Below are positions 3,637-21,840 of a stretch of 64,000 bases of DNA, piece after piece; position 1 is the stretch's first letter; each line of letters starts with the position of its first letter. The stretch comes from Leishmania infantum JPCM5. Its lineage: Eukaryota; Euglenozoa; Kinetoplastea; Trypanosomatida; Trypanosomatidae. Location of the stretch: contig NC_009419.2 of the NCBI RefSeq assembly GCF_000002875.2, positions 1,786,642 to 1,850,641 of the forward strand, in the 5' to 3' direction. The position numbers and the translations under genes were made by a program. The notes beneath the pieces are model-generated. The model did no database searches and was not told the DNA's origin. It saw nothing but the letters and a program-made list of their open reading frames with translations.

Positions 3637-4395
3637 CGGGGCAGCCGACGAGGTCGAACCGCGGCTGCTCATGTCGAGCGTCAAGGCTGTTCTCTGCGCT
3701 AAAACTCTTCGGTCATGGGTGGTCTCCGGCACATTACTATCAATCCCGCTACGTTGTGCTTTCGGAGCCTTCCCAAGAGGGCAACCGATTATTACAGAGC
3801 AAGCTTTACAGCAAAAGAGATATAGATGCGCAGCGACTCTTCGACAGGGTGTAAGTGCCCCACAGACTGGGTGGCCGCTCTTCCACCGCCGCGCAATCTT
3901 AGCAGCGGCAACAGGCGGCACCTATGAAGCCTCACTAAAAGCTGTTTTTTTGAGGGGGGAAGTATCGGCTCCCCCCCCTTCTCTGGTCTCTTTGCATTTC
4001 CACTACACATCCTTCCCTCACCTCTCGAGAGCTTCTCCTGGTCATATCAAGGGCGCATGGTGATGCGCTGCGGATATCCGTACAGACACTCTGCATCGCC
4101 GACATCACCGGCCTCCTACCTCATGTGTGAACCTTCGAAAGGCAGTTCGCAGAGGCACGCCCTCGCACGGAGGCACATCCCTTTTCACCTTCTTACGCTT
4201 TCACCGGTGCACGCCAACAACGCGCATGCACAGCGCAACGCTCTCTCTCTTTGCTCCCCCGCAGCACTTACTCGTTCTGTTGAATGTTCCTCTGCTCTTG
4301 ATCCGCTCACGGTGTGTGTGCTTGCGCGTGGCTTATCAGCGAGTGGATCCTCTTTTTCATCCGTCTTTTACTGTGTCGCGTCCATCTCACCCTTT
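3637..4395. other. Intergenic region upstream of SIDER2 copy 1
   Basis: 3' UTR and spacer of the kaptin-like gene. T-rich and C-rich tracts lie near 3945-3980. No supported gene. Confidence 0.6.
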
Positions 4396-5032
4396 GATGA
4401 CGGGAGGGGGCAAACACACCCCGGTGTGAGGTGTCCCGGATCCAGTAGTCTCCTTAACCCTCTGTGTGCATGGGAAGAGGCCAAGCAGCTCCTCCTCCAT
4501 CCCCTGCCAATGCAGCGCTGCACTTCCTCTGGTGCTGGCAGGGTCCACGTGCCCACGACGTAGGGAAGCCAGTGCGCTGCATCGCGACGGATGTCGGCGG
4601 TGTGTCAGGTCCTGGATGGCGTTGCGTCGGAGCGGCCTGCGGCAGTGCCGACGCGTCTGCGCGGCTCCAGCGCATCCGTCACCCGGCCCTCACCACCGCC
4701 TGCTGGTGTGGGGAGCCTGAGCGCCACCCCCTCCCTCTCCGAGGAGGGATGCCGCAGGTGGCGGCCGGCATGATGGGAGCGGCTGTGAGGCGGCCTGCGA
4801 GGCAGCGGGGGGGGGGCGGGAGGAGGTCGGTGGAGCTTGAGGCAGGGGGGCCGTGCTCTCGGATGGCTGAGTCGGCGCGTTGCCGCAAAGCGTGTGTGCC
4901 GCGCTGCGTCGCAGGACTCGGTGAGGCCTGTGGCCGGCCAGAGGGCGTGTGTGTGTGTGTGTGTGTGGAGTGGCGTTGACGTCATGGCTGGTGGCAGAGA
5001 CACGGGCGCGTTGACGAATAAGAAAAAAAAAA
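4396..5032 (+). mobile_element. SIDER2-type degenerate retroposon, copy 1 (diverged)
   Basis: The element begins with GATGACGGGAGGG and shares a core of over 500 bp with the elements at 31481 and 43927 (for example CTGGTGCTGGCAGGGTCC and CGGAGCGGCCTGCGGCAGTG). It differs from the other two in the first ~100 bp, carries an extra (GT)n run at about 4947-4968, and ends in an A tract (5023-5032). A 3' A tract, no long conserved reading frame, and a position in an intergenic/3' UTR region on the transcribed strand fit Leishmania SIDER elements, which are relics of ingi/L1Tc-clade retroposons. SIDER2 in 3' UTRs is known to promote mRNA decay; that it does so for the kaptin-like transcript is an inference. 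CTCACCCTTT before the start is shared with copy 3, so the true 5' end may lie some 10 bp further out. Confidence 0.8.
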
Positions 5033-5439
5033 CGGTATTCGCCCCGTTCAGCGCGTCGCTTCACTTTCTCCCTGTCTCTCTCATTTTCCGCTTCTTCTCT
5101 CTTGTTCGCTATGCTGCTGTGGTGTGCTCCACACACACATCTCCCTCCCTTCCACGATGGACCGAGAAAGAGCAGCCGTGTTTCCTCGTTTTTGGTCACT
5201 CTTCTTCGTCAGCGTTCGCAACGACATGTCAGCTGCGCAGAATACGCGTCGCTGTCAGTGGTCTCTTGTCGGTTCGTGTGTGTGTGTGTGTTGGTGACGG
5301 TTTGCTTCTGCAGCTCGCGAGCCGTCTCTTTCTGTGCATGTGTGTCACACACATAAGGTGGAGCGGAGCACGACAACCTACACGCCTTAGCCGCTACACG
5401 GATTTCATCCCCCCCCCCCCTTTCCCGAATAGCAGCGAG
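5033..5439. other. 5' leader region of the CLEC16A homologue
   Basis: C/T-rich with (GT)n at about 5276-5291 and a run of about 12 C ending near 5420, followed by TTTCCCGAATAG just before the ATG at 5440. Candidate spliced-leader acceptors are the AG dinucleotides between 5431 and 5439. Confidence 0.5.
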
Positions 5440-8217
5440 ATGGACAAGATAAAGGAAGCGTTTAGCCGAGTGGACAAGTTCTCCCTGGAGAATGCTAACC
5501 GGCTGTGCACGGAGGTGGAGCGTATCGAAGAAACACTTCTCAGTGACGCAGGCGATGCCGAACGCAAGAACAAGCTGATCGATGCCTCCCTTCAGCACAT
5601 GCGGGAGCTCACCGAGGTGCTCGTCTGGATGGACAGCAACCACCACGAGTGGTTTGAGCGGGTGCTGGAGCGCGACGTCATGAACACGTTCGAGCGCCTA
5701 GTCACCAATGGTCTAATGCCGTCGTCTGTAAAACTGCAGAGCCTGCAGAGTGTCACGTTCATGCTGCAGAACATGTCGCGGGCGCCGTCGCTCTACTACC
5801 TCTGCAGCAACAATCACATCAATCGCATGGTCGCCGTCGAGTTCGACATCCACGATGACGAATTCGTCTCGCTCTACGTGTCCTTCCTGAAGTCTTTAGC
5901 CCTGCGGTGTACACCCGACACAGTGCCGCTCTTCTTTGAAGTGCAAGATAGGGCCTTTCCGCTCTGGGATCGGGCTGTACGGCTGCTTTGCTCGGAGGAT
6001 GTCATGGTGCGCACCGCCGCCAAGCAGATCATCGTCACCATCGCACAGTTACAAGACACGGCGGTGTCTGCCTTCATAGACGCGTCCATCGCTGACGTCT
6101 TTCGAAGTGTGCTGCACTTCGTGAATGCGCAGATCGTGCGCCTTGCAGCACATGTGCCGTCCTGGATCACCCTACAAGGGACGGAGAGTTTCTCACGCGC
6201 TTCCAACGACCCCAGCGCGGCGGTTTTTCCCCTATCCTCGGACGCTGCTGCGACACCGCCGTCGCCTGCAGCTCGAGCCCCCCTATTGGTAAACACGCGT
6301 GTGCTGGCAATGCAACTGGAGGACGTGGAGGACGAGCTGCTCTATGTAAATGATCTTTGTCGCACACCGGTGTCGAACGCGGGTGCGCAAGCGGCGGCGG
6401 TGATGCAGCGAGTTCTCTTTCCACGCTTCCGCGGCGCCATCGAGGATGAGGTGGATTCTGCCGGCGTCGCCTTTGCCCCTTCGGCGGCGAGTGTGACGTG
6501 TGCCAAGTACGCGGCGCCTGGTGTTCAACCCAGCGGCTCGTATGCCCCTGCGTGCGTTGTGTTGGCGTTCCTCTTTTATTGGTCACAGGTGAACACCGAC
6601 GCCTGCGTTGCCGCCGCGTTAGTCGACTTCTTCTTGGAGCCGCTCAACTCATCCCCCGGGACCTCGCGCTTCACCGTGGCGTCCATGGTGTTGGAGTCCA
6701 CACGCGTGGACCTGCATGAGCCGGTGGTGGCCGTCTGTCGGCACGCGCTTTCGCGGGCAAGACCTCCGCCTACCTCATCGGTTTCGCCTCCGCCACCGTT
6801 GCGCTTCCCCAGCTCGCTTGCTCAGTTCTTCTACACCGAAACACCGTACCAGCACACGGGGATGGTGCTGATCGGTGGCCCAGGCTCCACGATTCTGCCC
6901 TCAAAGGAGAAGTTCGTTCGGAAAGTGTGGCCATCGCCGCGGACCGACACCCCCAATGCATTCGTGCCCCTCATCCCCCACGTAGTTGCCGCGCTTTATA
7001 CCCAAGTGAAGTACTTCCAGGCAGCTCGACTCAGCTGCGTGACTGCCTCGCTGTCGTTGCTGCTCGAAGTGATTCCGAGTGCAGCGCCGGGCAAGGCCGA
7101 CTGGGCAAACGTGTACCTTGAGATGATGAAGCTGGTACAGCGTCTGCTGCTGGACTGCGCGAAGCAGTACGCCTCGGCGATACAGAAGACGGTGCAGGAG
7201 CAGAAGGATGCGGACAGTGTCGTGCCGCTCTCTCGCATTTCCTTCCGCGACATCGAATCAGGGGACGAGGAGGCACCGCTGCCGATCCGAGACCCCTACG
7301 CGCCGATGTTTCTGAAGCTGAAGGAAGCAGCCATGTGGATGAAGACGGCAGAGCAAGCGCGTTCGCCGCTGCTGGAGACGGCGGTGCAGCACAACAGCAA
7401 GAAGGACCTGTACCTTTTTTTCCCCTCCTTTCCTCTTCTGTTGTCGGATGAGTGCAGTCTCGTCCTGAGCGCGTGGCCGCCGCTCCTCCTCAGATCTCAC
7501 CAGCAGCCGCGTGAGGCGGCACAATGGACGATCGCATACCACGCTCTGCAGGACAGCATCGTGCGCGCCTTTGACTACTCAACTCGCTCGCCGGTGTCGG
7601 ATGCCGAGTGTGAGCTGAATCTGTATCGCATTTTTCTCTTGATGCGGCGTGCGTTTGCGTGTCACATCCAGGGGAACGGAGTCGACCTGCTGCAAGCAAC
7701 ACTGCGGCAGCTTTCGCCTCAGCACACGCAATCGATGCACTTCAACTTGACTAACGCAACCACGGAGCTTTCCGTTCGGTGCGAGATAACCAGCGAGTGG
7801 CACTCGGACAGCCAAGCGCCTCCCATCGCGCCACCGGGAACGCCGGTCTGCATGGTGCTCCCTTCCGCGGCCGCCGGTACGGAGGGGAGGGAGTTACTTT
7901 TCTTGGAGATTCCCATCAGCGTTCCGGAGAGAGTGCGCTCGCAAGAGCTGCTAACAGGCGAGTACAAGCGGCGTGTCCTCTGGAGCTTAGATCTGGCCTT
8001 TGTGGGTATCGCTATCCACCCGCGGTACCCTTTCAAGGTTGTACTGTCCTACCAGCTCCCGGGGAACTTTGCGCAGCTGCACCTCGTCACCACCGGTGCG
8101 GCGATGGCGCGGATGATGGTGACGGACGTGGAGAAGGCGGCCAACGAGTGCCGCCAGCGGGGTGCGTCTTTCTGCTTTGGCATAATGAACTACAGGAGCG
8201 CCCTTGTCGACGAGTAG
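5440..8217 (+). CDS. CLEC16A/Ema homologue (FPL-domain protein)
   Basis: 925 residues from ATG 5440. The reading frame stays open upstream into the SIDER element, with in-frame ATGs, but similarity begins at MDKIKEAF and a polypyrimidine tract with AG directly precedes 5440. The N-terminal ~200 residues match the FPL domain of CLEC16A, Drosophila Ema and worm GOP-1: LTEVLVWMDSN near residue 60, SLYYLCSNN at 117-125, then FVSLYVSFLKSLALR and MVRTAAKQIIVTI. Metazoan CLEC16A sits on endosomes and lysosomes and acts in endosome maturation, autophagy and mitophagy (with Nrdp1 in mammals). The remaining ~700 residues are helical with Ala/Pro/Ser-rich inserts and no motif I recognise. The family assignment is strong; the cellular role here is inferred. 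Confidence 0.88.
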   Translation: MDKIKEAFSRVDKFSLENANRLCTEVERIEETLLSDAGDAERKNKLIDASLQHMRELTEVLVWMDSNHHEWFERVLERDVMNTFERLVTNGLMPSSVKLQSLQSVTFMLQNMSRAPSLYYLCSNNHINRMVAVEFDIHDDEFVSLYVSFLKSLALRCTPDTVPLFFEVQDRAFPLWDRAVRLLCSEDVMVRTAAKQIIVTIAQLQDTAVSAFIDASIADVFRSVLHFVNAQIVRLAAHVPSWITLQGTESFSRASNDPSAAVFPLSSDAAATPPSPAARAPLLVNTRVLAMQLEDVEDELLYVNDLCRTPVSNAGAQAAAVMQRVLFPRFRGAIEDEVDSAGVAFAPSAASVTCAKYAAPGVQPSGSYAPACVVLAFLFYWSQVNTDACVAAALVDFFLEPLNSSPGTSRFTVASMVLESTRVDLHEPVVAVCRHALSRARPPPTSSVSPPPPLRFPSSLAQFFYTETPYQHTGMVLIGGPGSTILPSKEKFVRKVWPSPRTDTPNAFVPLIPHVVAALYTQVKYFQAARLSCVTASLSLLLEVIPSAAPGKADWANVYLEMMKLVQRLLLDCAKQYASAIQKTVQEQKDADSVVPLSRISFRDIESGDEEAPLPIRDPYAPMFLKLKEAAMWMKTAEQARSPLLETAVQHNSKKDLYLFFPSFPLLLSDECSLVLSAWPPLLLRSHQQPREAAQWTIAYHALQDSIVRAFDYSTRSPVSDAECELNLYRIFLLMRRAFACHIQGNGVDLLQATLRQLSPQHTQSMHFNLTNATTELSVRCEITSEWHSDSQAPPIAPPGTPVCMVLPSAAAGTEGRELLFLEIPISVPERVRSQELLTGEYKRRVLWSLDLAFVGIAIHPRYPFKVVLSYQLPGNFAQLHLVTTGAAMARMMVTDVEKAANECRQRGASFCFGIMNYRSALVDE

Positions 8218-9769: not shown

Positions 9770-12700
9770 ATGAAGGCCGCCACTGCATTCGTCGTGGGGG
9801 ACATTGTCCTGCCCCTGCCTCGCACATTCTCTGTTTTCGAGAATCAGCTGGTGCTGCCGGACGGCATCACGGTGCGCCACGGCGATGATTTCAATGTCAC
9901 CATCATCAGCCACTTCCTCGTCGCCGTGAAGCCCTTAAGCGCCGATGCGGAGATCGTCGTGAACTTCAACTTGTGCTTCTACGACCTGCTAAAGTCGAGC
10001 ATGCCGCCAGCAATGTCGGCGAGCGAGAGGGAAGGCACACACACGCCAAACGCGAAGTCAGCGCACACCTTCGAGCGCCCCGTTGTGCCAGGCTTCCGCT
10101 ATCTCAAGGAGGAAGCCAAGCAGGAGCTGTACCGCTTCGCCGATGAGCAGGTGCGGCAGCAGGCCATCGACGACGGCTTCCTCCCGCGTGGCAGCGACGA
10201 GGGCCAGCTGACGGTGATGCGGGCGAAGGCTGGCGAGCCGGTGGCAGTCAGCACCAAAGAACACGAAGAAGGCGACGTCGTCTTCGAGACGACCGGCGTG
10301 CCGCTGCCGTTCCCGATTCGCAGCACTGTCGAGCTCCCGGGCGACTTGCATCTGCGGCTCACAGGCGGCTCCGAGTTCCTGCAGCACTCCTGCCTCCCGA
10401 ACGTTCGCCTCGAGATCAACGGTGTGCACATCCGCGGCATAGCCCTGCGCGCCATCGAGGCAGACGAAAAGCTGACCTACAACTACCTCACAACGGAGTG
10501 GGAAATCAGCAAGGTGTTTCACTGCTCCTGCAACGTGTACTGCTGCTACGGCTTGATCAAGGGATTCCGCTTCCTCGATCGCGAGCAGCAGGAGCACCTG
10601 CTGCCGCACTGCAGCCCCGCCGTGTGCGAAAAACACCGCTCGCCGCTGCTCTCAGGAGCTACTTTTGGCGCCTTGAATGGCAGCACAGCGCTGTTCACGA
10701 CGGCAGAGGGCCGCCTGACCTCACAGCGCGATCTTGCGGCGGGCACAGTGCTGTTCGAGGTCTGTGGCACCCCGCAGCTGCAGCAAAGCGAGCTTGTGCT
10801 TGAGCGGCTGCGCCTGTCGCACTCGTGTAATGCGAACACCGTCCTCGTGAATGGCCGCGTCGTCGCGTCTCGCCCGCTCTCCGTCGGCGATGCGGTCACT
10901 TGCAACCTGAACCTCCTCTACTACACGCTCTCGCCAGCCCTGCCGTGTGCCTGCGGCTCGGTCAGCTGCACTGGTCACGTCGAAGGCTTCAAGGCGCTTC
11001 CTGTCAAGACGAAGCAATTGTGGTGGAGCTCGGCACCGAATGCGGTGCGGGCGGCAGCGCTCGAGGACGGTTACGAGATCGTCTCGTCCAGCGCCTTCGC
11101 AGACGTGCGGCGCACGTCAACCATTGGCAACGCCACATTCGCAAGTCGCAACATCGCTGCCGGCACGCGTATCTTCCACGTCCACGGGCTGGTGCTCCCC
11201 TTCCCCACTGTGTACACCATCTACCTCGGTGAGGGGAAGCACCTGCTCTTTGCAGACGGGGCGCAGTGCCTCGCGCACAGCTGCGACCCGAACACGCGCG
11301 TTGTTGTGAATGCCGAAACAGGCAGCTTTGATTGCTTCGCGCTGCGCAATATCGCTGCGGACGAGCTGATCTCTTTCAACTACCTGACGACGGAGTGGGA
11401 CATGAGTGAGCCATTCACCTGTGCATGCGGCAGCAGCAACTGCCATGGCCGCATCGCCGGCTTCCGTCACGTGAAGCGGGAGGGTCAGCTGAAGCTCTGG
11501 AGCACCGCAACCCGAGCTGTGCAGTCCCTATTCGCACAGAGCATTCGGCAGACGGCAAGCACCCTGGCCACGCTCAACAGCACGCTTGTGGCCCCGGCCG
11601 ACATGAGCGGCGCTCTCTCGCTCTCTCAGGACCTACCGTCGGGCACGCTGCTCTTCGAGGCGGCGGCGGGCTTCGCCGTGGAAGGCGATCACGTATGCTT
11701 CGGCGACATCTTTCTCGCCCACTCCTGCAACGCCTCGGCTGTTCTCTTGGAGGGTCGTGTTTTGTTGAGCGATGCTTGCACGGCCGGAACCGTTGTCACC
11801 CTGAACGTGAACCAGCTGTGCTACAAGCTGGCAAAACCCTTCACATGCCACTGTAACGGGGCCGACTGCACACACGTCGTCGGAGGCTTCGCCGCGCTGT
11901 CAGAGAAGGAAAAGGAGCGCATTCTGCTGTGCACGGCGCCAGATGTGCGCGCAGAGGCGACTGCTGCCGGCTTCAGGACTCCCTGCACGTGCCCCTTGGT
12001 GACAGTGAAGGCGAACGGGGCGATGGGGCAGGCCACCTTCGCGGCACGCAGCATTCCTAAAGGCACCCGCTTCTTCAAGGTGAACGGGCTTGTGTTGCCC
12101 TTTCCGACTGTGTACACCATCCAGCTGGAGCGGGGCCGCCACCTGCAGTTTGCCGACGGTGCACAATGCCTTGCGCACAGCTGTACACCAAACGTGCGCA
12201 TCATGGTCGATGCAGAGAGCCGCTCGCTTGACTGCCTCGCCCTCCGCGACATTGAGGAGGGGGAGTTGGTCGCCTTCAACTACTTGACGACGGAGTGGGA
12301 CCTGAGTAGCCCGTTCTCGTGCGTGTGTGGTGCTGACGGTGCCTGCTTCGGGCGCATTCACGGCCTGAAGTATCTCTCCGGGGAGCAGCGGCAGCGACTG
12401 TGGTGGATGCTGACCCCAGCAATGCGCCAGCTGGCAGATCAGTCATTCAACTGGAGGGCGCTCTCCGGGGCGCAGCTGCGCACCGACCAAGACGGACGTG
12501 TGCGCGCCGCAAAGGAGCTGAAGGAGGGGCTCATCATTTTGGAGGCTTTGCAGGTGCAACTGCGAGTCGGCTGCGCGCTTGTGGGTGGCGTGCAGCTGAG
12601 GCACAGCTGCGTGCCGACGGCCGCGATAGTGGAAAGGCGTGTGATCGTGATCGGGACTGTCTGTGCCCAGACGGAGATCACGCTGGATCTGAACTGTCTG

Positions 12701-14209
12701 GCCTTCACCCTGGCGGAGCCGTTCACGTGCACGTGCGCCGCCGACGCGGCCCCGCACACGGTGAAGGGCTTTGCCGCTCTGTCCGCGGCGGCGCAGGCGA
12801 CACGGCTGATTCTCACCGAGCCATCAGTGCGTGCGGCAGCTCTGCGTGATGGCTACCAAGTCCCGTGCAGCTGTCCGCTTGTGGAGGTGCACGCGAACGG
12901 CGAAATGGGCCAAGCGACGTTTGCTGCCGTCGACATCGCAGCAGGCATCTGTTTCTTCCAAGTGAAGGGGCTGTGCATCCCGTATCCGACCCTGGACACC
13001 ATCATGTTGGACGAGGGTCGCCATCTGCTCTTTGCGGATGGGGCGCAGTGTCTCGCGCACAGCTGCGACCCCAACGTGCGCGTTCGTGTCGACGCAATGA
13101 ACAACATGCTCGAGTGCCAGGCGCTGCGGCCGATCAAGGCTGGCGAGCTCATCGCCTTCAATTATAACGCGACGGAGTGGGACATGAGCACGCCGTTTCG
13201 CTGCCTGTGCGGTTCGCCGCAGTGCTTGTACGAGATTCGCGGCTTCAAGCACCTCTCCCAGGCTCAGCGCGCGTTGCTCCAGCGCCAGGCGACACCGGCC
13301 ATCAAGGCTCTGGCCTCTGCTTACGCGGACGTGCAGCTGCCCGCGACGCTGCTGCGTGCGGCGCCGGATGGTCGCCTCAAGTCTGCGCGTGCGGTGGCCA
13401 AAGGCGACATCCTGCTGGAGGTAATGTACCTGGATGTGCAGCCGAATCAGATATGTGTCGGGCGTCACTACGTGGTGCCGCACGACACCGACCGGTACAA
13501 CTGTGTACTGGTCGAGGGGCGCCTCATCGCCAGCCGCCCCGTGGCTTCCGACGAGCAGCTCTCGGTGAACATGAACTTCTTCGTGTACGACATGACGGCG
13601 ATTTTCCCGCACACCTTCGACGACGCCTGCAAGGGGTTCAAGTTTATGGACGAGTCAGTCAAGCAGGAGTGCCTCTACCTCTGCGAGCCGCCGGTGCGTG
13701 CTCACGCAATGTGGGACGGCTGGATTGTGAAGAGTTCGCAGGACGCTCTCGTGGTGCGGCCCAACGGTGACATGGGCCAGACCGCCTACGCGCGCAAAGA
13801 CATCCCAGCTGGGACAAGGCTATTCCACTGCACCGGACTTGTGATACCCTTTCCCACCATGTACACCATCTGTGTTGGCGTTCATCGGCACCTGCTCTTC
13901 GGCGACGCTGCAGAGTGTATCGCCCACCATTGCGATCCGAATGTCGAGGTGCGCGTCGGCGAGTCTGGCGAGGGCACCTTTGACTTTGTGTCGATCCGTG
14001 ACATCGCGAGGGATGAGATGATCGCCTTCAACTACACGACAACGGAATGGGACATGAACACGCCATTTGTGTGCCTCTGCGGCTCACCCAAGTGTGCCGG
14101 GACGATTCAGGGCTTCAAGCACCTCCAGGAAGCTGAGCAGCAGCGGCTGTGGCCAATCACGTCAAAGGTGGTGAAGGATCAGTGGAAGCTGTACACCGCG
14201 TCCGCCTAG
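9770..14209 (+). CDS. Giant tandem SET-domain protein: ten SET-like units in five A-B pairs
   Basis: 1,479 residues from ATG 9770, the only ATG at the head of the frame. The protein is a tandem array with a period near 295 residues, each period holding two kinds of SET-like unit. B units have His at about 205, 503, 803, 1097 and 1386. They keep HSCxPN (HHCDPN in the last), then [YF]NYxxTEW (the catalytic-Tyr region) and a post-SET-like CxCGxxxC zinc motif followed by GF[KR] (GLK in the third). A units have His at about 37, 350, 650, 945 and 1238. They are degenerate: HSC survives in three but is HGD in the first and HDT in the last, the Tyr motif is replaced by N[LVMF]N or DLN, and the Cys cluster decays progressively. 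SET proteins methylate lysines of histones and other proteins using SAM. The unit resembles the stand-alone SET proteins of bacteria and fungi that end in TEWDM plus CxCG. Nothing else was recognised: no PHD, MYND or membrane segment. Which B units are active, and the substrate, are unknown. Confidence 0.85.
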   Translation: MKAATAFVVGDIVLPLPRTFSVFENQLVLPDGITVRHGDDFNVTIISHFLVAVKPLSADAEIVVNFNLCFYDLLKSSMPPAMSASEREGTHTPNAKSAHTFERPVVPGFRYLKEEAKQELYRFADEQVRQQAIDDGFLPRGSDEGQLTVMRAKAGEPVAVSTKEHEEGDVVFETTGVPLPFPIRSTVELPGDLHLRLTGGSEFLQHSCLPNVRLEINGVHIRGIALRAIEADEKLTYNYLTTEWEISKVFHCSCNVYCCYGLIKGFRFLDREQQEHLLPHCSPAVCEKHRSPLLSGATFGALNGSTALFTTAEGRLTSQRDLAAGTVLFEVCGTPQLQQSELVLERLRLSHSCNANTVLVNGRVVASRPLSVGDAVTCNLNLLYYTLSPALPCACGSVSCTGHVEGFKALPVKTKQLWWSSAPNAVRAAALEDGYEIVSSSAFADVRRTSTIGNATFASRNIAAGTRIFHVHGLVLPFPTVYTIYLGEGKHLLFADGAQCLAHSCDPNTRVVVNAETGSFDCFALRNIAADELISFNYLTTEWDMSEPFTCACGSSNCHGRIAGFRHVKREGQLKLWSTATRAVQSLFAQSIRQTASTLATLNSTLVAPADMSGALSLSQDLPSGTLLFEAAAGFAVEGDHVCFGDIFLAHSCNASAVLLEGRVLLSDACTAGTVVTLNVNQLCYKLAKPFTCHCNGADCTHVVGGFAALSEKEKERILLCTAPDVRAEATAAGFRTPCTCPLVTVKANGAMGQATFAARSIPKGTRFFKVNGLVLPFPTVYTIQLERGRHLQFADGAQCLAHSCTPNVRIMVDAESRSLDCLALRDIEEGELVAFNYLTTEWDLSSPFSCVCGADGACFGRIHGLKYLSGEQRQRLWWMLTPAMRQLADQSFNWRALSGAQLRTDQDGRVRAAKELKEGLIILEALQVQLRVGCALVGGVQLRHSCVPTAAIVERRVIVIGTVCAQTEITLDLNCLAFTLAEPFTCTCAADAAPHTVKGFAALSAAAQATRLILTEPSVRAAALRDGYQVPCSCPLVEVHANGEMGQATFAAVDIAAGICFFQVKGLCIPYPTLDTIMLDEGRHLLFADGAQCLAHSCDPNVRVRVDAMNNMLECQALRPIKAGELIAFNYNATEWDMSTPFRCLCGSPQCLYEIRGFKHLSQAQRALLQRQATPAIKALASAYADVQLPATLLRAAPDGRLKSARAVAKGDILLEVMYLDVQPNQICVGRHYVVPHDTDRYNCVLVEGRLIASRPVASDEQLSVNMNFFVYDMTAIFPHTFDDACKGFKFMDESVKQECLYLCEPPVRAHAMWDGWIVKSSQDALVVRPNGDMGQTAYARKDIPAGTRLFHCTGLVIPFPTMYTICVGVHRHLLFGDAAECIAHHCDPNVEVRVGESGEGTFDFVSIRDIARDEMIAFNYTTTEWDMNTPFVCLCGSPKCAGTIQGFKHLQEAEQQRLWPITSKVVKDQWKLYTASA

Positions 14210-15429: not shown

Positions 15430-16782
15430 ATGTCGAGGGCAGTCAAGCCAGTGAAGCGAGTGACCTTTGGCCCGGTGACATACTTCTCGGCCCCTCTCAT
15501 CGAAGCCTCACAAGGCTCAGACTCACATGAAAGCAGCCGTCTCGTAGATGCGCTGGCGCTGCGCCAGCGCGTGTCGAGGCCAGCGACAGTGGCGATCGTC
15601 GCTTCTGGGGCAGCGCCGCCCCTACAGAATGAAGTGGACGGGCTCCTCAGGGCCGGAGAGCTGGAGGAGTACGCGGCGCAGCCAACGCTGTTCCTCGGCG
15701 CAGCCGTGGACAAACCTCATGCAGCACTGTCGTCTGTCCAACAGGCCGCTAATGTCGCCACTGAAGACAACTGGGAGGGAGGCGACACGGAGGACCAGAC
15801 GCCGGTGTCACATCCGCGCGCGACTCCCGCCACCTCATCGGTGACTCGACAGGAGTCGTCCGACGACGAAGCGTACGACACACCGGTGGAGAGCAGGCCT
15901 GCCACACGGCGCCATCTGATGCGTGCGGCAAGGCTAGACGGTGCGGGGACCCGTGAACCGCCACCGTCGATTTTGGAAAAGTCGCCTACGCTTTCGCAGC
16001 TGGTGTCCGCAGTGGACGACGTCCTTGGCGGCTCCCAGCGCACCCCACGCAGTCCTTTGGCTGCTTCCTCCTCTGCCTTTGCTCCTCGAGGCAGCTGCTA
16101 TTCAACGGAGGCCGCAGCGGAACGATCAAGCAGGACGAACTCTTTTCCGCCAACGCCAATGAGTCTGGCAAAGGTGCAAAAGGCCGACGCATATGACACG
16201 AGAGAAGCCGGCGGATGCGCCGACCCACTGCTCGCGGCAAGGTGCATGCTCTACCACCGGGAAGGAGACGAGAGCATCACCGCAAGCGGGTCGACCGTGG
16301 CGCTGATTGTGCCCCATAACGCAAGTGACAAGGTGCACCCATCCTTCTGCGTCTTCTGCGGCATCGGTGCGAACTGCGGGAATGCTCACGAGACACTTCC
16401 ACTCTGCTTCTCTGACGGCATCGCGTATCACACGGCGTGTGCCCTCTGGTGTCCAGAGGTCTTCTACGACATCGAACTCGGCACACTGAAAGGCATTGCA
16501 GACGCGGCGCACCGAGCTCGCCTTATCAAGTGCGCGTGGTGCCGCCAACCAGGAGCGGGGGTCGGCTGCGCCTGGCCAACGTGTCAGCTGAGCTTTCACG
16601 TCCCTTGCGCGGTAAAAGCGCGGGCGTCGATTAATGTGCAGACATTTGTGCTCTACTGTCCAGCCCATAGATCAGCCACCGTCAGCAGAACTGCGGCAGA
16701 TCAGCTTGGGCCCCCAGGCGGCGAGGCGGCTCTGAAGAGGACGAAGGTTGAAGAGCGCCCTGGCGCCTCTCGCTTCTTCTGA
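15430..16782 (+). CDS. Extended-PHD (ePHD) zinc-finger protein
   Basis: 450 residues from ATG 15430. The first ~300 residues are Ala/Ser/Pro-rich and probably disordered. From about residue 306 there is an extended PHD-type zinc module (zf-HC5HC2H class): CVFCG, a Cys before HETLPLC, then YHTACALWCPEV, an IKCAWCRQPGAGVGC segment, LSFHVPCAV, and a final CPAH. The order Cys4 - His/Cys - zinc knuckle - Cys4 - His - Cys - Cys-x2-His is that of ePHD domains in chromatin proteins such as BRPF, JADE, MLL and PHF6. These bind nucleic acid or histone tails, usually beside a canonical PHD, which is absent here. The function is probably chromatin- or nucleic-acid-linked. The SET-array gene is directly upstream, though neighbours in trypanosomatids need not cooperate. 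Confidence 0.72.
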   Translation: MSRAVKPVKRVTFGPVTYFSAPLIEASQGSDSHESSRLVDALALRQRVSRPATVAIVASGAAPPLQNEVDGLLRAGELEEYAAQPTLFLGAAVDKPHAALSSVQQAANVATEDNWEGGDTEDQTPVSHPRATPATSSVTRQESSDDEAYDTPVESRPATRRHLMRAARLDGAGTREPPPSILEKSPTLSQLVSAVDDVLGGSQRTPRSPLAASSSAFAPRGSCYSTEAAAERSSRTNSFPPTPMSLAKVQKADAYDTREAGGCADPLLAARCMLYHREGDESITASGSTVALIVPHNASDKVHPSFCVFCGIGANCGNAHETLPLCFSDGIAYHTACALWCPEVFYDIELGTLKGIADAAHRARLIKCAWCRQPGAGVGCAWPTCQLSFHVPCAVKARASINVQTFVLYCPAHRSATVSRTAADQLGPPGGEAALKRTKVEERPGASRFF

Positions 16783-20053: not shown

Positions 20054-20781
20054 ATCGGCGTCCCTAAAAACTTTGACGCGGTGGTGATGTGGTTGGTCTC
20101 TCCCTCTCTCTCTCTGTGATCGTGTCTCCGATGAGGAGAGGGAGGACATGCCTCCGCGTATAACACAACGGAAAAACAATAATGATTCGAGCAAGAGCGG
20201 CAGATGTCAGCATTTAGCTTGCTGGCAGTGTGGAGGGACGTCGACTATATAGCCATCTGCATCGAGACCGCTTCGTTTTTCTCCCCCCCTGTAGTCCCCA
20301 GTTCGTGTAAAGAACCCTCTCTGTGAGGGATCAGTGCTGTACTGATTGCCGCCTGGAAGCACGAACACCCGACTGTGTGCTGAGCGGCAAACCGCGCCGC
20401 CCGCTGGCAAGCACGGGCCCCGCAAACCTTCACATGGGACGCCACGCACGCCTATGTAGACAGACCTCATGTTTCACGCTCTATCACCCCTGATCTTTGT
20501 TTTTTTTTTCTGGGGGGTGGGGAGGGGGCGTATCTTAATGTCGGCCCTCCTTCGCCACCCGCCCCTCCACTCTCTCAGCGCCCTTCTGCCCATCTCCTTC
20601 TCGGCTCCCATCGTGTGCTTTCTTGTCCCAGTCGCTCGCTGCTGTTCCACCGCTGCTTAGGCACCGACACCGGAGGGGTGGCGGATAAAAAGGCACGTAG
20701 CACTGTTTATGTTTCCGTGCGCACACGAAGCTCTTGAGTGTTGCAAGACGCACCCTCCCACAGTCGCAGCGCTGCACAGCA
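20054..20781. other. Intergenic region
   Basis: Contains a T run plus G-rich patch at 20500-20530 and C/T tracts at 20545-20650. No supported gene. An ATG at 20709 opens a frame that conflicts with the PSD frame and looks non-coding. Confidence 0.55.
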
Positions 20782-21840
20782 ATGGAGCTATTCCGCATCA
20801 CGGCTCCGTTGCGCTTTTACAAAAGCAATCGCGGCATCCGTCTCTCGAACCCGTCTCGTCGGTGGCTGTACAACCGCCTTTTCCTCGGTGGCATCGGCGC
20901 GTTTGGTTGTTACCTCACGCTGCGCTATCAACTCGCTGCGTGGGAAGCGTCTAGGAATCCGGAAGATGGAAACTGCCTGTGCTCCAGCGACATGGTCGAC
21001 TTCCTGCGCTACATGCCCTTCAACCTCTTCTCTAACGTCGTCGGCCGGCTTGTAGAAAACGAATCCGTACCGGCGTGGGTGCACAACTGGTTTGCGCAGG
21101 CTGTGGTTTACTGGTACGCACTTGACATGTCGGAGTCGGTGCAGAAGACCAACTTCGAGACCTTTCAGCAGTTTTACGTCCGCGACTGGACGCCAAAGGC
21201 ACGCCCAGTAGATGCGGCGGCCTCTGTTGTCGCCCCGTGTGACGGCCAAGTGTTGGCAGTGAACACGAATGTGGAGAGCACCTCGCTTGTGCAAGTGAAA
21301 GGACTTACCTACGGCATGCGCTCCCTCTTGCAGGAAACTCCTCCGCCGCTGGGCACGGACACGCACCGCCGAGTGGCCGTGGTGCTTCACATGCGCAACA
21401 AGGACTTTCATCATGTCATCGCACCACTATCATTTGCGTGCGAGAAGAGCATCTACGTGCCCGGCTCCCTGCTACCGACGACCGCGGCCGGCTATCATTG
21501 GATCCCTGCCGTTCTCACCCTCAACGAGCGCCTCGTACTACAAGGGAGGTCTAGCGACAAGGCACGGCTCCCGGTTTACATGGCCCTAGTTGGCAGCACT
21601 CTCACCGGACGCATCACGCTCTACATGGACAAGCGCGTTCGCACAAACTACCTCGACCCGCCAGCCTACGCCGTGCACTCGCCGTACGCGTCGAAGCCAG
21701 TTGTGGCGCGCGGTGAGCGACTGGCGACGTTCAACTGGGGATCATCTGTCGTGCTGGTAATGGATGTACCTAAGAGCTGCAAGCCGCTCAAGCGCGCAGG
21801 TGATGTAGTGAAGGCTGGCGAGGCCCTCTTCCAATTCTAA
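20782..21840 (+). CDS. PSD: Phosphatidylserine decarboxylase (pyruvoyl enzyme)
   Basis: 352 residues from ATG 20782; the longer frame starts with TTG at 20734. It converts phosphatidylserine to phosphatidylethanolamine, typically at the mitochondrial inner membrane. Visible features are a basic N-terminus followed by a hydrophobic segment (FLGGIGAFGCYLTL, residues ~34-47), the FYVRDW entry, VAPCDGQV at about 151-158, HMRNKDFHHVIAP (the conserved His pair), and near the C-terminus FNWGSS. Gly320-Ser321 is the expected self-cleavage bond: Ser321 becomes the pyruvoyl group of the short alpha chain. The usual bacterial and animal motif is LGST; here it reads WGSS. Everything needed for activity appears present. 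Confidence 0.9.
   Translation: MELFRITAPLRFYKSNRGIRLSNPSRRWLYNRLFLGGIGAFGCYLTLRYQLAAWEASRNPEDGNCLCSSDMVDFLRYMPFNLFSNVVGRLVENESVPAWVHNWFAQAVVYWYALDMSESVQKTNFETFQQFYVRDWTPKARPVDAAASVVAPCDGQVLAVNTNVESTSLVQVKGLTYGMRSLLQETPPPLGTDTHRRVAVVLHMRNKDFHHVIAPLSFACEKSIYVPGSLLPTTAAGYHWIPAVLTLNERLVLQGRSSDKARLPVYMALVGSTLTGRITLYMDKRVRTNYLDPPAYAVHSPYASKPVVARGERLATFNWGSSVVLVMDVPKSCKPLKRAGDVVKAGEALFQF

Follow-up and report, generated by a model that had tools for sequence, protein, structure and literature searches.

A ten-unit SET protein of Leishmania infantum with five pairs of pseudo-SET and SET units, the latter related to BurB

The window, that is the whole stretch analysed, comprises 64,000 nucleotides of Leishmania infantum JPCM5 (contig NC_009419.2, positions 1,786,642 to 1,850,641, forward strand). 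At 9770..14209 (+ strand) it carries a gene for a protein of 1,479 amino acids (aa), stop codon included in the interval, built of five tandem pairs of SET-derived units; each pair consists of a degenerate unit (A) and a unit with the SET and post-SET hallmarks (B). The coding sequence is defined by its open reading frame (ORF), Pfam matches, homologs and profiles. The frame runs open from 9326; its first ATG lies at 9770, a start common to most aligned orthologs. The unit order is A1 B1 A2 B2 A3 B3 A4 B4 A5 B5. The motif histidines are residues 37, 206, 351, 503, 651, 803, 945, 1097, 1238 and 1386, all within one residue of the ten positions listed by an earlier reading of the sequence alone (the first-pass annotation). 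The gene is not new as such, since databases already list it as coding for a SET domain protein.

All ten units derive from SET, as the first-pass annotation had proposed, which is clear of the minimum of six on which it had made its reading depend. The Pfam SET model (PF00856) scores 133.2 bits on the whole protein (gathering score 22.4), with five stretches passing; a SET search across the 32.07 Mb genome gives 27 matches above the cut-off, five of them in this gene, each in a different B unit. The A units are assigned to SET by profile comparison, and A2 additionally by its predicted fold. The A-unit profile gives only weak matches to solved structures (best 0.02), and each of the ten listed is a SET enzyme. 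MLL1, SMYD3 and ASH1L head the matches of the A units; BurB, a bacterial SET-domain methionine S-methyltransferase, is not the closest for A units. Self-BLAST of the 1,479-aa protein returns the trivial full-length match only; the units were told apart by aligning orthologs and by profiles. Pfam finds on the protein only SET and a weak SAF match, with no further chromatin domain. The SAF match lies in B5 (window ~13784-13822, residues 1339-1351; 26.1 bits against a cut-off of 21, no single stretch passing) and probably reflects the SAF model cross-matching the beginning of the SET unit.

Protein search recovered at least 28 homologs besides the query, the scored set being the 7,994 candidates that share most words; the best named ones are from Leishmania. 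Full-length rows number 25 including the query (1,444–1,510 aa) and form the basis of the ortholog counts below. Leishmania, Porcisia, Novymonas, Lotmaria, Leptomonas and Trypanosoma are named among them; ten rows besides the query are taken as trypanosomatid by identity. Two partial gene models from Strigomonas and Angomonas (P0026, 960 aa; P0027, 901 aa) and two more distant proteins (P0028, P0029) are excluded from these counts.

Unit A1 (residues 1-124; 9770..10141, + strand, as are all units) is a pseudo-SET with Phe66 at the position of the catalytic tyrosine and without zinc cysteines, recognised by ortholog alignment and by comparison of its profile with those of the B units (probability 91.6-96.6). 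B1 (residues 125-284; 10142..10621) has SET and post-SET parts with His206 and Tyr239, the latter a tyrosine in 24 of 25 rows and phenylalanine in P0024; it is placed by SET search and ortholog alignment. A2 (residues 285-426; 10622..11047) is a pseudo-SET by alignment and predicted fold, with Leu380 at the tyrosine position and with HxC and CxC..C in 25/25 rows. B2 (residues 427-585; 11048..11524), SET and post-SET by the same two lines of evidence, has His503 and Tyr538 (25/25), and its best fold match is BurB. A3 (residues 586-727; 11525..11950), assigned by alignment, profile comparison and model, is a pseudo-SET with Val680 at the tyrosine position and with the cysteines in 24-25 of 25 rows. 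B3 (residues 728-885; 11951..12424), SET and post-SET by SET search, alignment and model, has His803 and Tyr838 (25/25). A4 (residues 886-1021; 12425..12832) is a pseudo-SET by alignment and profile comparison, with Leu974 at the tyrosine position and the third post-SET cysteine lost. B4 (residues 1022-1180; 12833..13309), SET and post-SET by SET search and alignment, has His1097 and Tyr1132 (24/25, again phenylalanine in P0024). A5 (residues 1181-1310; 13310..13699), placed by alignment and profile comparison, is a pseudo-SET with Met1268 at the tyrosine position and the cysteines lost. B5 (residues 1311-1479; 13700..14206), SET and post-SET by SET search and alignment, has His1386 and Tyr1422 (25/25) and is the most conserved unit.

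The alternation is stable across orthologs. The catalytic tyrosine after the GExxxxNY-type motif is present in 123 of 125 B cells of the alignment (24, 25, 25, 24 and 25 for B1-B5) and in none of 125 A cells, the sole two B exceptions being phenylalanine in B1 and B4 of P0024 (T. brucei equiperdum). The histidine, the motif cysteine and the three post-SET cysteines are kept in 25/25 rows in every B unit. Mean pairwise identity is 0.59-0.71 for B units versus 0.46-0.57 for A units, B5 being highest. Profiles built separately for A and B units alternate along this gene, P0026-P0029 and P0089-P0092. Chance is excluded because the A/B tyrosine difference holds column by column in 25 orthologs and because the profiles alternate in distant homologs; an assembly artefact was rejected since 25 distinct full-length sequences have the same layout. 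The paired active/inactive design and the missing tyrosine of the A units, both claimed by the first-pass annotation, are thus borne out. Its B-unit hallmarks hold for the tyrosine and fail at one place, B1 having CxCN rather than CxCG.

Shortening of the pocket-side stretch and loss of the tyrosine are common to all A units. The interval from a conserved glycine to the motif histidine is 25-27 residues in A versus 38-39 in B, in all 25 rows, a feature that the first-pass annotation does not mention. The gap removes TVYTI in the alignment of A2 with B2 and spans the same place in that of A3 with B5; in A1 and A5 the aligner sets the gap elsewhere, so that the exact place of the shortening is unsure. 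TVYTI of B2 aligns with residues 70-74 of BurB, of which Arg70, His72 and Thr73 contact methionine or S-adenosylmethionine (SAM; PMC12542666). The cysteine cluster is complete in A2 (25/25) and nearly so in A3; A4 keeps HxC and CxC, and A1 and A5 keep none. Cysteine loss is independent of position, and progressive decay along the chain, expected from the first-pass annotation, was rejected.

Tyrosine loss, the shortened stretch and the absence of cysteines from A1 and A5 would suit A units that are functionless relics carried along by tandem duplication. This is very improbable, as each of the 25 full-length orthologs retains an A unit in all five pairs, conserved while lacking catalytic residues: A2 keeps HxC and the post-SET cysteines throughout, A5 has 57% mean identity, and the confidence of the A2 structure model rises when neighbouring units are present. 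A non-catalytic scaffold or sensor, in which the array would offer five sites for SAM, S-adenosylhomocysteine or methylated ligands, would agree with the missing tyrosine in half of the units and with the phenylalanines of P0024, by which single sites can evidently change. It is also unlikely, if slightly less so: the tyrosine count in B cells and the higher conservation of B than of A are hard to explain without catalysis. The Tyr-to-Phe mutant of BurB retains >60% activity (PMC12542666), so the changes in B1 and B4 of P0024 need not mean lost activity.

An origin of the array by tandem duplication of an A-B pair, as first proposed, is supported: A profiles resemble A, B profiles resemble B, and B1 and B5 form position-specific groups that reach Bodo or P0029. 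In a tree of 65 hand-chosen rows (20 of 62 inner branches open), B1 of Leishmania, T. brucei, Bodo and P0029 forms one group (100/97) and B5 joins the third B unit of P0029 (100/96); the kinetoplastid B units were not all recovered together in this tree. Because these groupings reach Bodo or P0029, at least part of the tandem expansion predates the trypanosomatids. The fragment P0091 from the free-living relative Bodo saltans covers A1-B1-A2 and the start of B2. P0029 has four A-B pairs and P0028 five, both with near-identical internal copies, which suggests recent duplication or homogenisation of the pairs in those lineages. In P0092 (301 residues) there is a single A-B pair, with a low score for the A part (19 bits); the protein may be derived and need not represent the ancestral pair. 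The short proteins P0037 and P0041 seem to include a piece of another SET unit of this type, a hint that tandem SET proteins occur elsewhere too.

Among solved structures BurB (MSMT; PDB 9l4t, 9l4v) comes nearest to the B units, ranking first by sequence, profile, Foldseek and VIA-align Z. B units and BurB share a tree branch (90/91), an [ST]TE segment after the catalytic tyrosine, and the absence of asparagine before the HSC motif; as far as sequence can place them, the B units fall on BurB's branch of the SET family. Residues 17-157 of BurB cover one B unit and the end of the preceding linker. BurB is a protein of 180 aa with one active domain and without pseudo-SET partner, whereas here there are five B units of the active type per chain; two BurB molecules form a dimer arrangement in one crystal form (PMC12542666). 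P0093 (186 aa) has an N-terminal half like the kinetoplastid B units and a C-terminal half with the BurB-like TTED..RQF, and weakly joins BurB (82/43).

The main alternative to an enzyme for amino-acid-like or peptide substrates is a multi-site protein lysine methyltransferase, in which the B units modify lysines of a histone, a cytoskeletal or another repetitive protein, at several sites or along a polymer. Trypanosomatids have about 29 SET proteins, few of them studied and generally taken as lysine methyltransferases (PMC10907163, PMC7468196, PMC5976210). Histone lysine methyltransferases with a post-SET (ASH1L, MLL, SETD2, EHMT) share with the B units the SET fold, the tyrosine and the CxC..C zinc site, and the tyrosine and three zinc cysteines are conserved in B units. 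Phenylalanine stands two residues before the tyrosine in B2, B3 and B5, and this, like the A-unit matches named above, speaks for a lysine methyltransferase. On the other side, BurB acts on free methionine, and the histone enzymes, with one SET domain each, rank below it for B units. Asparagine in NHSC is a feature of SET protein lysine methyltransferases, and further chromatin domains are usual there. In the 25 orthologs the residue before the histidine is A/G/Q in B2, A/G in B3, A in B5 and mixed in B1 and B4, never N; of the 22 other SET loci in this genome, 18 have asparagine there. Only eight of 29 T. brucei SET proteins have some nuclear signal (PMC8559703); none of the 29 names was matched to the present protein.

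Two observations weigh against an amino-acid-like or peptide substrate. The fold match of the B units to ASH1L is close, with a root-mean-square deviation lower than that for BurB, and SETD2 and MLL also match closely. The SAM-contact side chains of BurB are Arg42, His72, His93, Arg133 and His138 (PMC12542666); B2 keeps His93 only, the others being replaced by I, Y, E and A in an alignment judged by eye. The SAM pocket of the B units, whose hallmarks the first-pass annotation saw as kept, is therefore supported in part: motif histidine and tyrosine are kept, and four of the five BurB contacts are not kept in B2. The asparagine of NHSC is also kept in 8 of 10 prokaryotic relative rows of B units, so its loss alone does not tell the substrate.

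Prokaryotic relatives were sought with the pattern Y[LN]TTEW[DE][ML] in 84,980 species genomes. It matched 33 stretches, and 23 of these code for a relative. As the pattern is strict, the true number is at least 23, and the TTEW common to them follows by construction. A scan of viral contigs returned no relative. Amino-acid or peptide biosynthesis genes lie beside the SET gene in 11 of the 23 loci (a bare count), and this too would speak against a lysine methyltransferase; some neighbours in the other 12 were named. At five loci (L035, L036, L042, L043, L047) a non-ribosomal peptide synthetase (NRPS) of Pls/PosA-like type lies downstream of the SET gene on the same strand, with ORFs overlapping or abutting. 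The five score 314-379 bits with the Pls/PosA terminal-domain model, below the cut-off of 423, and all five exceed the cut-off of the adenylation-domain model. They amount to about four independent cases, since L042 and L047 are closely related and have their flanks in common. The TTEW-type SET gene upstream of an NRPS suggests a role in poly-amino-acid or related biosynthesis. The synthetases at these loci have adenylation, carrier and hexapeptide-type C-terminal parts. At two loci (L030, L031) the neighbour is a pyridoxal-phosphate (PLP) decarboxylase of the ornithine/diaminopimelate family that does not reach the lysA cut-off; in the methionine pathway, the step after BurB is likewise carried out by a decarboxylase (PMC7496086).

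Four loci (L029, L032, L040, L041) carry, within ~2 kb of the TTEW-type SET gene, a fusion of an ATP-grasp domain (D-Ala-D-Ala ligase-like) with SET. The fusion is confirmed by Pfam in L029, L032 and L040 and by alignment in L041 (frame 4329-5924); Pfam scans of the L041 ORF 4255-5736 gave no match. Seven of the 23 host genomes match the L029 fusion at 1e-20, five of the seven reach the SET part, and four of these five are the linked copy. L029 has an extra ATP-grasp ORF between SET gene and fusion, and in L032 an ABC transporter gene adjoins. Plasmid records with a match number seven; those examined are one of four from Streptomyces and those from Tabrizicola, Deinococcus and Mesorhizobium. 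On the Tabrizicola piscis plasmid (L054, 1124-6128) a BurB-like SET gene heads a possible operon with a GHMP kinase, a PLP enzyme, a DMT transporter and an alanine-racemase-like gene. The examined Streptomyces, Deinococcus and Mesorhizobium plasmid records have no clear adjacent pathway.

The protein is read as a methyltransferase that uses SAM at up to five active sites and carries pseudo-SET partners in its own chain; its acceptor is somewhat likelier amino-acid-like or peptide than histone (probability roughly 0.5). An amino-acid-like or short-peptide acceptor is favoured over histone because of the kinship to BurB and the prokaryotic neighbourhoods. The lysine methyltransferase, processive action and methyl-lysine scaffold of the first-pass annotation are not supported; the nearest solved relative and part of the neighbourhoods point to amino-acid-like or peptide substrates. 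A multi-site lysine methyltransferase keeps a considerable, though smaller, likelihood. Most likely, ordinary SET chemistry would operate at up to five sites, one per B unit, each B unit binding SAM and transferring the methyl group. Each A unit would be an intrachain pseudo-subunit packed on a neighbouring B unit, stabilising or regulating it as prozyme does for S-adenosylmethionine decarboxylase (AdoMetDC). In trypanosomatids AdoMetDC and prozyme likewise set a dead paralog beside an active partner (PMC6221367), as a heterodimer of two proteins; here both are in one chain, five times. With less certainty, a short peptide or a molecule resembling an amino acid, rather than a histone tail, would accept the methyl group; a bacterial-type module including ATP-grasp-SET proteins may be the source of the gene or its present working partner. 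Free mono-, di- and trimethyl-lysine are labelled from methionine in T. brucei, and modified lysines rise with a stress agent (PMC5976210). These free methyl-lysines may come from protein turnover or breakdown and so are not counted as evidence.

The Leishmania genome has both gene kinds that are adjacent in some bacteria, since three of its loci align with the L029 fusion. L001 (contig C26, 987523-987837 region) is 37.6% identical to it over 487 aa (1.9e-98) and has by Pfam a ligase domain and SET. L019 (C25:688753) is 31.7% identical over 479 aa, by alignment only. For L002 (C36:62574) the alignment covers chiefly the SET region; its ligase part is degenerate, and Pfam finds SET alone. It is conceivable, though rather unlikely, that kinetoplastids carry a bacterial-type system of amino-acid or peptide methylation in which the ATP-grasp-SET proteins (L001, L019 and L002 with its degenerate ligase) work with the five-site SET enzyme.

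Other genes noted in the window are on the + strand. An ORF that follows on the same strand (15430-16782) encodes a PHD-like zinc-binding protein (zf-HC5HC2H). An ORF with an FPL domain lies at 4837-8217, and one with a phosphatidylserine decarboxylase domain at 20734-21840.

The ten-unit architecture of active and dead SET units is not described in the titles or abstract starts of the top-ranked open-licence PMC papers on tandem or multiple SET domains and trypanosomatids. Top-ranked open-licence PMC papers on small-molecule SET enzymes do not describe this protein by title or abstract start, and no paper with both 'ATP-grasp' and 'SET domain' was among the top-ranked open-licence PMC matches for these parasites. 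Chlamydomonas class IV-C proteins likewise have more than one SET domain per chain, namely two after SAD_SRA and pre-SET, with no active/dead alternation in the passage that describes them (PMC5725981). LdSET7 (51.5 kDa) and LdSET29 (1.16 kb amplicon) are ruled out as this gene by their small size. SET-J3C (LtaP35.2400) was rejected as this protein, having one SET-like region only (residues 70-227).

The five A-B pairs offer a natural five-fold internal comparison of how a pseudoenzyme supports an enzyme. Kinship to BurB and the prokaryotic neighbourhoods make small-molecule methylation by some parasite SET proteins a testable question. If the joint system with the ATP-grasp-SET proteins is true, part of the trypanosomatid 'histone methyltransferase' inventory would be metabolic rather than epigenetic.
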